From Sulfuricella sp. (lineage in GTDB: Bacteria > Pseudomonadota > Gammaproteobacteria > Burkholderiales > Sulfuricellaceae), in the NCBI GenBank assembly GCA_018336195.1, contig JAGXQV010000052.1, positions 1 to 64,000 of the forward strand: a stretch of DNA of 64,000 bases. The letters are read 5' to 3'. Shown in pieces: positions 158 to 2,117 of the stretch; positions within the stretch are counted from its first letter, which is position 1, and every line of letters starts with the position of its first letter. Position numbers and translations under genes: made by a program. The notes beneath the pieces are model-generated. The model saw nothing but the letters and a program-made list of their open reading frames with translations, ran no database searches and was not told the DNA's origin.

Positions 158-235
158 GCATCAGGGGTAACACGGCATACCGCATTGCGATAGGAATGGA
201 TTGATTTGCAAAAACGACTTGAAATTAATCATAGA

Positions 236-315
236 AGGGTGGACACGCCCTTATCGTGTCCACGCGGTGTTGCTCGGGGTGGGATGGTGGACACAAAAGG
301 CCGTGTCCACCCTAC
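236..315. repeat. REP palindrome pair (BIME), copy 1, upstream of RAYT gene
   Basis: Two hairpins sit side by side: GTGGACACG (239-247) pairs with CGTGTCCAC (255-263), and a second stem spans 286-311 with the same GTGGACAC core in the opposite orientation. The unit starts AGGGTGGACAC and ends with its inverse. It lies 9 bases upstream of the RAYT start codon and is matched by copy 2 right at the RAYT stop codon. RAYT transposases are known to recognise such REP pairs. Confidence 0.85.
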
Positions 316-324
316 AATTAGCGC

Positions 325-870
325 ATGTCCCGTTATCGACGCGATCATTCCGCTGGTTCGACCTGGTTCTTTACCGTGGTGACTTATCGGCGGCGGCCCA
401 TTCTTTGCGAGGAACCGTTGCGGGTCGCTTTGCGCGATGCCATCGCGGCGGTGCGTGCGGAACGGCCCTTTACCATCGATGCCTGGGTGCTGCTGCCGGA
501 TCATCTGCATTGCCTGTGGACATTGCCGGAAGGCGACGCGGATTTTTCGATGCGCTGGATGCTCATCAAACGCGCGGTGTCGCTGGCCTGCCGCGCTGAC
601 TTTCACCGCGACGACTGGCTGACTGCCGCGCAACGCCGGCGTGGCGAATCGTCGCTCTGGCAACGGCGCTTTTGGGAACACCGCATCCGCGACGGTGCCG
701 ATTTCGCCCACCACGCCGATTACTTGCATTTCAACCCGGTCAAACACGGCCTGACGGCCAACGTCGCCGATTGGCCGTATTCGACCTTTCACCGCTACGC
801 GCAAAACGGCATTTATCCGCCCGATTGGGGCGGCATCGCGGACACGGACGGGGAATGGGGCGAATCGTAG
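325..870 (+). CDS. REP-associated tyrosine transposase (RAYT), IS200/Y1 family
   Basis: This 181-residue protein belongs to the single-strand Y1 HUH transposase family that acts on REP palindromes. The metal-binding HUH pair is H60-L61-H62 in PDHLHCLW, and the catalytic tyrosine is probably Y133 in ADYLHFNPVKHGL. The WQRRFWEHRIRD block (112-123) is typical of RAYTs. Length is normal and both motifs are intact, so it may be active. It is bracketed by two palindrome pairs, the downstream one overlapping its TAG stop codon. RAYTs are usually single-copy domesticated genes thought to spread REP elements rather than themselves. The family call is secure; activity is inferred. Confidence 0.9.
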   Translation: MSRYRRDHSAGSTWFFTVVTYRRRPILCEEPLRVALRDAIAAVRAERPFTIDAWVLLPDHLHCLWTLPEGDADFSMRWMLIKRAVSLACRADFHRDDWLTAAQRRRGESSLWQRRFWEHRIRDGADFAHHADYLHFNPVKHGLTANVADWPYSTFHRYAQNGIYPPDWGGIADTDGEWGES

Positions 871-949
871 GGTGGACACGGCTTTATCGTGTCCACGCGG
901 TATTGGCCGGCGGTGGAACGGTGGACACAAAGAGCCGTGTCCACCCTAC
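868..949. repeat. REP palindrome pair (BIME), copy 2, downstream of RAYT gene
   Basis: This has the same architecture as copy 1: a GTGGACACG...CGTGTCCAC hairpin, then a second inverted GTGGACAC hairpin (920-945), with AGGGTGGACAC ends. Its first bases include the RAYT stop codon. The next ~50 bases (951-1000) resemble those following copy 3 near 2 kb, so the mobilised or duplicated segment may be longer than the hairpins. Confidence 0.85.
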
Positions 950-1097
950 AGAACTGCGTGAGTGTAATACCGCGATGATTGACCTGCCCCGGATTTCTTG
1001 CGGCCTGGTGCGGATGATGACAGGGGTAGCGGGGGAGTGAGCGCCGGGAACCCATCTCATAACGCCGGATCGCTTGCGGCGTACCGGTGGATCAGCC

Positions 1098-1517
1098 TCA
1101 CTCCCCTGCCCAGTCTTCCACGCTCAGCCCCGTCACGCGCGCAAACTCGCGGACATTGTGAGTAACCAGCGGGATGCCCAGACTGAGGGCATGCGCGGCG
1201 ATGAGGGTATCCAGCGGGCCGATAGGCAATCCCGACGACTCCAGTTCGCTGCGCACCGTGCCGGCGCGGTGGGCAGCCGCCTCGTCGAAAGGAACGACGA
1301 GAAAATCGAGCAGGAATTCCCCGAGCAGCGCCATGTTGGCCTTGCGCCAACGGCCCTTTTGCGCGCCGTAGCTCAACTCGAAAACCACCAGACTGGAGAG
1401 CACAAGATTGTCATCGCCGCCAAGCTCGTCGATACGAGCGAGGATACGCGCCTGTCGTTGCGGATGACGGTCGGTCATCAGGTAAATACAGGTGTTGGTA
1501 TCCAGCATGAAGTTCAT
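1098..1517 (-). CDS. VapC-type PIN-domain ribonuclease toxin
   Basis: This 139-residue single-domain PIN protein would be the toxin of a type II toxin-antitoxin pair, cutting RNA (often initiator tRNA or rRNA in characterised VapCs). The acidic metal-binding set is visible: D6 in MLDTN, E47 in VVFELSY, D103 in [11 protein letters not shown], and the conserved polar position near N121 in THNVREF. Its ATG overlaps the last four bases of the upstream antitoxin gene (ATGA), so the two are translationally coupled. Length is normal and no key residue is missing. The RNA target cannot be read from sequence. Confidence 0.9.
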
Positions 1518-1744
1518 TGCGGCCAGTCCCGTTCCTCGAAGGATTCCTCGGGCAGTGCCGGGAACTCACCCTTGAAGCGACCGACACAGGCTTTCAGATG
1601 CTGCCAGCGCGCCGCTTTCCTGGGAATCAGCAACACCGTGTCGCCTTGCTTGCGTATATAGACTTCGTCTTCCTGAAAGCGGAATTCCTTGGGCAGGCGG
1701 ACAGCCTGGCTGTTTCCCTGCTTGAAGACCTTGGCGGTTTTCAT
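1514..1744 (-). CDS. VapB-type antitoxin (AbrB/SpoVT fold)
   Basis: This 76-residue protein starts [21 protein letters not shown], the signature of the swapped-hairpin AbrB/SpoVT DNA-binding domain of VapB antitoxins. The acidic, tryptophan-containing C-terminus (EERDWPQ) is the expected toxin-wrapping tail. A good ribosome site (GAGGTGT) precedes the ATG. It is the first gene of the pair with the PIN toxin. VapBC complexes normally repress their own promoter, and a GC palindrome next to a -10-like hexamer lies just upstream. Confidence 0.9.
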
Positions 1745-1777
1745 GATTGGACACCTCGCGTTGCGTAGCTACTTTTC

Positions 1778-1799
1778 AGTATACACACCCGCGCGCGGG
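1778..1799 (-). promoter_or_regulatory. Candidate vapBC promoter -10 and operator palindrome
   Basis: Reading the minus strand, TATACT (1783-1778) resembles a -10 box about 35 bases ahead of the vapB ATG. The perfect palindrome CCCGCGCGCGGG (1788-1799) would lie in the spacer. A palindrome overlapping the promoter fits autorepression by VapBC. No clear -35 box is seen. Confidence 0.4.
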
Positions 1800-1833
1800 T
1801 TTGCCATGCAGGCGCCGTTTACACCCGTTGCCG

Positions 1834-1935
1834 TTAATCCGCTTTCTTATCCTTGCCGGGCAGCATTTCGCGGATTTCCTTTACCAGCCCCTTCCATTGC
1901 TCGATGGGTTTGTCGCTTGGCGCGAAGTTCGTAGA
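1834..1935 (-). pseudogene. C-terminal remnant of an unidentified gene cut by REP copy 3
   Basis: On the minus strand an open frame runs from the edge of the REP pair to a TAA at 1836-1834. It reads ...FAPSDKPIEQWKGL, continues with EIREMLPGKDKKAD, and ends. The charged amphipathic tail looks like real protein, but there is no start because the frame is interrupted at 1936 where REP copy 3 begins. The parent family is not recognised. This is an inference from reading-frame quality only. Confidence 0.35.
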
Positions 1936-2018
1936 AGGGTGGGCACGGTATTTTGTGCCCACGCGGTAGGGTTATAGGGCATTTTCGCGTGGGCACGATA
2001 AGACCGTGCCCACCCTAC
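1936..2018. repeat. REP palindrome pair (BIME), copy 3, diverged
   Basis: Same layout as copies 1 and 2, but GTGGACAC is replaced by GTGGGCAC in all four arm segments, so the changes are compensatory and keep the stems. It starts AGGGTGGGCAC and ends with the inverse. The following ~48 bases (2019-2067) match those after copy 2 with a few differences. It lies between the vapBC and parDE modules, 1 kb from the RAYT gene. Confidence 0.8.
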
Positions 2019-2117
2019 CTGGCTGCGTGAGGGTAATGCTACGATGATAGACCTGCCCCCGGATTTGCCGGATTTGTGTAGTGTAATCATCCGGCTTAAT
2101 GCCCTGCGGGAATTGCC

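Follow-up and report, generated by a model that had tools for sequence, protein, structure and literature searches.

A RAYT gene in a Sulfuricella genome flanked by one class of paired REP arms, with a probably older class close by and two protein residues that covary with the REP stem

We analyzed a 64,000-nucleotide stretch of DNA from Sulfuricella sp. (the window; positions 1 to 64,000 of contig JAGXQV010000052.1, GenBank assembly GCA_018336195.1), which near its start holds a gene for a REP-associated tyrosine transposase (RAYT) and three copies of a REPIN, each made of two repetitive extragenic palindromic (REP) hairpins in opposite orientation (Table 1). Copies 1 and 2 stand on either side of the RAYT gene, as had been described in an earlier note based on the letters of the window, and the overlap of copy 2 with the stop codon was also borne out: the GTAG at positions 867 to 870 forms the head of copy 2 and at the same time supplies the TAG (868 to 870). 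Of 200 RAYT loci inspected, 7, counting that of the window, have a stop codon supplied by a REP GTAG. In copies 1 and 2, every arm reads GTGGACAC/GTGTCCAC. Copy 3 is also a full REPIN, and it carries the variant pair GTGGGCAC/GTGCCCAC in four of four arms, as the note had claimed. Of the four outer ends of these first two copies, three have GTAG; the exception is the left end of copy 1, with ATAG. This end reads ATAGAAGG in place of the GTAGG seen in most copies, because another repeated sequence abuts copy 1, and the left end of copy 3 reads GTAGAAGG. When folded as single-stranded DNA and compared with dinucleotide shuffles, copies 1, 2 and 3 gave z-scores of -4.8, -7.9 and -10.5, with 0 of 200 shuffles folding as stably in each case.

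Table 1. Features at the RAYT locus and places where the repeat to the left of copy 1 recurs
Feature	Position	Strand	Description
REPIN copy 1	232-315	.	GTGGACAC class, directly 5' of RAYT gene
RAYT gene	325-870	+	Open reading frame, ATG to TAG, 181 aa; NF047646 match
RAYT codons 106 (Arg) and 107 (Gly)	640-645	+	Covariation with REP bases 5-7
REPIN copy 2	867-949	.	GTGGACAC class; GTAG head is source of RAYT stop
Tail 3' of copy 2	954-996	+	Related to tail 3' of copy 3
REPIN copy 3	1932-2018	.	GTGGGCAC class, all four arms
Tail 3' of copy 3	2023-2066	+	Local alignment with copy 2 tail
Copies of the 162-236 repeat	G000 C190 end; C200:1-75; C127:1-75; C46:1-75; C54 end; partial C33:11897-11920		

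The window RAYT scored 191.4 bits against the NCBIfam model NF047646 (cut-off 80), and 20.4 bits against PF01797 (Y1_Tnp), below the cut-off of 23. In 44 aligned RAYTs, the HuH residues H60 and H62, as well as Y133, N137 and H141, were invariant, and the NP(L/V)(R/K)xG motif is present in the window protein as NPVKHG (residues 137 to 142). Since the HuH and NP(L/V)(R/K)xG motifs are given in the available text of PMC2817692, the catalytic residues could be named, with Y133 the likely catalytic tyrosine. An AlphaFold model of the protein (mean predicted local distance difference test score, pLDDT, 87.5) had the E. coli RAYT-REP complex 4er8 as its best fold match (E 2.1e-19, template modeling (TM) score 0.80/0.88). 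In this model, residues 106 and 107 lie in a loop between helix 101-105 and strand 117-120. On alignment, residue 107 stands opposite Gly89 of the E. coli RAYT, which is without most of the preceding segment. For the E. coli protein, the accessible part of PMC8266576 places the GTAG contacts around strands 1 and 4 and the C-terminus; helix 3 makes a stem contact through K82. No RAYT matches were found in phage records; viral contigs yielded two RAYT loci.

Both arm variants recur outside the window. In the window genome (4.77 Mb in 211 contigs), the GTGGACAC pattern gave 24 hairpins, making up 12 REPINs, and the GTGGGCAC pattern gave 11 hairpins, so that the genome-wide search proposed in the earlier note did return further copies of each. 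Together with the NF047646 score and the fold match to 4er8, this repetition upholds the note's identification of a RAYT with its cognate REPs. TAGGGTGGNNAC was found 31 times in the genome, and 30 of these occurrences read GACAC or GGCAC. A covariance model built from 16 copies recovered the pattern-found copies and some weaker ones; ten of the weaker matches, plus one match found by pattern only, were read individually, at ten places in all. In the 16 aligned full copies, the A/G position was the sole variable arm position, the invariance of the others being partly built in because the copies had been found by pattern, and this position was paired in 31 of 32 cells, in agreement with the claim that the stems are kept by paired changes. 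The two classes differ in their state of preservation: all four arms were present in 12 of 14 GTGGACAC copies and in 3 of 12 GTGGGCAC copies (Fisher p 0.004), with classes read by eye, the mixed copy on contig 55 excluded and the partly mixed copy on contig 59 counted as GTGGACAC. The contig 55 copy (L017, G000:C55:52556-52631) is the only full REPIN mixing the classes: three of its arms are of the GTGGGCAC type and the fourth is GTGGACAC. Another composite, L328 (G000:C6:23050-23300), is a hybrid in which a REP half of the contig 104 type is joined to a GTGGGCAC half.

The earlier note had also proposed testing whether each variant pairs with a distinct RAYT gene, a question that is answered in part. 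The window's intact RAYT is flanked by one class, and a GTGGGCAC hairpin adjoins a truncated RAYT on contig 25, standing just 5' of the ATG of this 43-residue remnant (C25:22942-23070). The two other intact RAYTs of the genome, on contigs 200 and 104, carry the unrelated REP families GTAGGTTGGGGTGAAC and GTAGGGCGGAAAAGCG.

The distribution of the two classes points to copy 3 as the bearer of the older arms. GTGGGCAC-class arms flank 10 of the 10 fetched foreign RAYT loci whose identity to the window protein is 64% or more (L055, L056, L057, L083, L084, L085, L088, L090, L130, and L133), and L130 also carries one GTGGACAC arm. GTGGGCAC hairpins were present in 6 of 100 genomes of the order, the window genome included, and the genome G028 holds 60 of them. 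Of 399 genomes of the order searched for GTGGACAC, two contained it, namely, the window genome and one other with a single hairpin. Among 107 RAYTs, the GTGGACAC label fell on one (the window's) and the GTGGGCAC label on 18. With GTGGGCAC widespread in the samples searched and GTGGACAC nearly private to the window genome, the arms of copies 1 and 2 are therefore most likely the derived ones: these two copies and the window RAYT would represent a newer class, and copy 3 an older one. In one other genome of the genus (G001, 80% complete), no RAYT match was found. The earlier note's label of a compensatory-changed third copy is thus misleading, and its polarity is probably reversed. On the note's polarity, copy 3 would descend from a GTGGACAC copy in which all four arms had undergone compensated mutations, and although copy 3 lies 1 kb from copy 2 and has a tail in common with it, this is very improbable given that the nearest foreign RAYTs and several other genomes carry GTGGGCAC, that GTGGACAC occurs in just one other of 398 genomes, and that the window genome contains further GTGGGCAC copies. 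Copy-by-copy compensation was judged an unlikely origin for copy 3, the same arms forming a class in other genomes and elsewhere in this one.

REP classes follow the phylogeny of the transposases. An earlier tree, unsettled by the fragment L007, was replaced by one of 38 near RAYTs, for which we chose the rows and arm classes ourselves. On this tree, the ten arm classes required nine changes, the least possible; shuffled labels averaged 19.9, and 0 of 200 shuffles needed as few. In Massilia, the A/G step recurs at the same position (GTGGACGG and GTGGGCGG) within one supported clade. Across RAYT loci, the flanking REP stems diverge widely yet stay paired (the script seeks paired stems only), and in Stenotrophomonas "selection for complementary mutations" was inferred by Nunvar et al. 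2010 (PMC2817692, in the text available). It could be argued that REPINs are kept for a function in the cell, such as transcription end or mRNA stability, that their arms are paired for this reason, and that the RAYT is incidental. The strong folding of the three copies fits such a role, and roles of this kind are reported for REPs in other bacteria (PMC3686654, accessible portion), but we consider this explanation improbable, as it leaves unexplained why REP class follows the RAYT tree and why each intact RAYT of this genome has its own flanking REP family.

The sequences 3' of copies 2 and 3 are also related. Their tails align over 44 columns with 86% identity; the local score is 31, whereas none of 1000 shuffles scored above 14. 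Similarity 5' of the two copies is marginal at best (score 10, with 49 of 1000 shuffles as high), and the spacers between the two hairpins differ. The duplicated unit of about 130 bases proposed in the earlier note is therefore supported for the arms and the tail but not for the spacer. A search with a pattern allowing up to 3 mismatches gave no further tail copies in the genome beyond those of copies 2 and 3. We rejected the tail as a genome-wide repeat, there being no third genomic copy, and as a conserved RAYT flank, since the 40 best matches in RAYT loci were only the window's own copies. Because the tail is common to copies 2 and 3 only, it links copy 3 with the region 3' of the window RAYT and speaks for a local duplication that preceded the class switch. 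The contig 25 remnant speaks instead for a sister RAYT. According to this alternative, there was duplication and loss in place of a switch in situ: two sister RAYTs had their own REP classes, and the GTGGGCAC one is now truncated on contig 25, its repeats, including copy 3, decaying. Besides the GTGGGCAC hairpin just 5' of the remnant's ATG, it is favored by the other RAYT paralogues that the genome retains, each with its own REP family, and by the mostly partial state of the GTGGGCAC copies. The tail of copy 3, in contrast, matches the 3' flank of the window RAYT alone, which links it to this RAYT and not to that of contig 25. We regard duplication and loss as a serious contender, somewhat short of an even chance.

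We then compared the RAYT proteins with the stems of their REPs, numbering the REP bases 1, 2, 3 and so on after GTAG, which puts the A/G step at base 6. Arg stood at residue 107 in 19 of 19 GTGGGC-type RAYTs compared (17 with GTGGGCAC and 2 Massilia with GTGGGCGG) and Gly in 5 of 5 GTGGAC-type RAYTs (the window's and four from Massilia). A first rule, with Arg107 going with G at base 6 and Gly107 with A, failed on wider data. For these, 206 loci were reduced to 201 distinct proteins and then to 138 with at least two concordant GTAG-headed REPs; among the excluded loci were 34 in which the script found no REP, the scan having covered GTAG heads and not GTGG. Despite a G at base 6, Gly107 was found in 16 of 20 loci with GGT and in 8 of 8 with GGG at bases 5 to 7. 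After inspection of the data, the rule was reworded to GC at bases 6-7. In the 138 loci, Arg107 was present in 58 of 68 with GC at bases 6-7, compared to 9 of 70 otherwise, and Arg106 in 58 of 66 with bases 5-6 other than GG, compared to 5 of 72 with GG. Where base 5 was C, Arg106 was present in 41 of 41 loci. Neither residue fits cleanly for GAT-type REPs (17 loci). A set of 115 loci labeled as held out is not a true hold-out, because the rule was reworded after looking, and it is not relied on here.

Such covariation could be an echo of shared ancestry rather than a sign of recognition, a view to which the clustering of RAYT and REP classes on the tree, and the wording of the rule after the data had been seen, lend some weight. 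In a mutual-information scan, moreover, other columns equaled or exceeded residue 107 for bases 6-7; residue 106 ranked first for base 5, residue 107 seventh for base 7, and neither led for the triplet. Ancestry was therefore taken into account with trees built without columns 103 to 109. With FastTree, 10 of 18 base switches shared both branch and direction with Arg107 switches (expected 2.2, simulated maximum 7-8), and 12 of 21 matched Arg106 switches (expected 2.3, simulated maximum 8-9). With IQ-TREE, 11 of 18 (Arg107) and 14 of 21 (Arg106) coincided, and removal of three gapped rows gave 9 of 17 for Arg107 and 13-15 of 20-21 for Arg106. Expected values across all tree variants were 2.0-2.4 for residue 107 and 2.3-3.0 for residue 106, and the coincident switches (9-11 of 17-18 and 12-15 of 20-21, respectively) stayed above the simulated maxima. 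Ten control positions gave p values of at least 0.11 in the same branch test. In a branch scan of 29 base by 279 residue features (8091 pairs), the top seven pairs all involved 106 or 107, several of these features overlapping, and only the best pair survived correction (3.8e-6, about 0.03 corrected).

A later test made use of a rule written down before RAYTs were fetched from plasmid records. It comprised 11 loci (L338 to L348), two from viral contigs included, of which 8 were used: the short RAYTs L342 and L345 had been declared out of scope beforehand, and no REP was found for L339. The rule was right in 8 of 8 loci for residue 106, with bases 5-6 other than GG in 7 of the 8, and in 6 of 8 for residue 107; in the two misses, L341 and L344, Arg107 occurs alongside GT and AT at bases 6-7. 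Blinding was incomplete, because the residues could already be seen when the REPs of L338, L340, L343 and L348 were assigned by eye. Given the coincident switches, the branch scan, the control positions and this later test, an explanation by ancestry alone appears unlikely. We tentatively suggest, at less than even odds, that residues 106-107 form a small reusable code for REP bases 5-7, with Arg106 if bases 5-6 are not GG and Arg107 if bases 6-7 are GC, and that a change of residue 107 from Arg to Gly permits the step from GTGGGC to GTGGAC here and, separately, in Massilia. RAYT-REP coevolution has been treated in published papers. No residue-to-base rule for the REP stem was found in the available portions of PMC2817692, PMC3686654, PMC3733652, PMC8266576, and PMC6006769; the structure paper for 4er8, which may discuss the loop, was outside this coverage.

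Taken together, we read the locus as a RAYT-REP system (REPtron) in which the window RAYT serves the GTGGACAC class, GTGGGCAC is what remains of an older class, and residues 106-107 partly read the changed base; we give this reading a probability of roughly 0.65. The RAYT would be expected to nick and rejoin its own REPINs as folded single strands, thereby spreading them. Since the RAYT would recognize a REP in its paired hairpin form, and the REP would be copied whole, its arms would change in step, and a newly paired arm would replace a class as a whole. Copy 3 and the other GTGGGCAC copies would then be leftovers of an older, widespread class. The transposase of that class would have been either the present RAYT lineage, prior to a switch of its flanking REPs (an "orthoswitch"), or a sister RAYT that is now the contig 25 remnant. 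The changed base would be read at least in part by the adjacent residues 106-107 in the loop before strand 4, which we infer to touch the REP stem, Arg107 going with GC at bases 6-7 and Gly107 with AC in the window.

Several observations weigh against this reading. The genome is scored as 7% contaminated, and single contigs with G-class repeats could be foreign, although copy 3 itself is on the window contig. Support for the position of the window RAYT in the tree of its relatives is weak (42/45), so that the tree does not establish its descent from a RAYT of the GTGGGCAC type, and the polarity of the two classes rests on their distribution and decay. The contig 25 remnant ends after 43 residues, before positions 106-107, and its sequence does not place it clearly nearer to RAYTs of the GTGGGCAC type than to that of the window. 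As for the residues, A at base 6 taken alone was not significantly associated with loss of Arg107 (p 0.06), mutual information ranks residue 107 only eighth for bases 6-7, and the 9 of 17 obtained for Arg107 without the gapped rows only just exceeds the simulated maximum of 7-8.

Other elements surround the three copies. To the left of copy 1, a stretch of about 75 bases (162 to 236) recurs at five other places with 93-100% identity, and 24 of its bases recur at a sixth (Table 1). It abuts REPs of four different families, and contigs break there. About 150 bases beyond the contig 33 junction, where the copy shares only the 24 bases, lies the end of an IS110-family transposase (PF02371, 50.3 bits). 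The repeat looks like the end of an insertion element targeting REP ends, and REPs are described as targets of insertion sequences, the IS110 family included, in the available parts of PMC1525189 and PMC11208160. The head at 162-236 resembles such IS110-type insertions in that it abuts REPs and has an IS110-family transposase end near one of its copies; it differs in that no complete element was recovered here, the contigs ending at this point. In searches of 41 genomes and of plasmids, the only matches outside the window genome were to the neighboring stretch 90-159. This stretch contains a GGGTTATCCAC hairpin and has relatives (82-87% identity) in G021 and G040 and in plasmids of Caballeronia and Paraburkholderia, where they lie outside listed genes. 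Between copies 2 and 3 lies a toxin-antitoxin pair on the minus strand, VapC-like (1098-1517) and VapB-like (1514-1744), with a Pfam PIN domain (77 bits) and a MazE-type antitoxin domain, the match to NF040493 (VapB) being barely above cut-off. Just 3' of copy 3 is another, ParE-like (2118-2483) and ParD-like (2480-2782), also on the minus strand.

The earlier observation is thus confirmed, and the system belongs to a known kind. The locus shares with described REPtrons (E. coli TnpAREP, 4er8; Stenotrophomonas and Marinomonas, available text of PMC8266576) the protein family, the fold and the HuH and Tyr residues, and its GTAG-headed hairpins likewise flank the gene in inverted pairs and are scattered in the genome. 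Compared to the E. coli RAYT, the window protein has about 17 extra residues before strand 4, the site of residues 106-107, and its palindromes are perfect, without the bulge of the E. coli REPs. Copy number is low, with 12 full REPINs of the main class; the usual number of REPs is given as >100 per genome (PMC2817692, text available), and the 24 hairpins here are fewer. Sub-families with complementary stem changes are common among the GTAG-tagged repeat families of Di Nocera et al. 2013 (PMC3733652), in the available text of which GTAGGGTGG was not found. Another close parallel is the orthoswitch of Nunvar et al. 2013 (PMC3686654, accessible portion), which the locus resembles in having two classes that differ by paired stem changes in one genome, and an intact RAYT flanked by one class only as the other decays. 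It differs in that a truncated second RAYT exists, so that duplication and loss is also possible, and in that synteny of orthologous RAYTs is not shown; the model of Nunvar et al. includes both switch and duplication/loss. In the available texts, the mechanism of the orthoswitch is only speculated on by Nunvar et al., and contacts with the stems of short REPs are speculative according to Corneloup et al. An older class, a newer class and a truncated RAYT in one genome address the question of how RAYTs discriminate their own REPs and how classes switch, and the value of the locus lies in this natural experiment and in the two-residue prediction drawn from it. The covariation turns the statement that RAYTs and REPs coevolve into a single-residue prediction, and if the code is true, REP class switches of the orthoswitch kind would be predictable from protein sequence.

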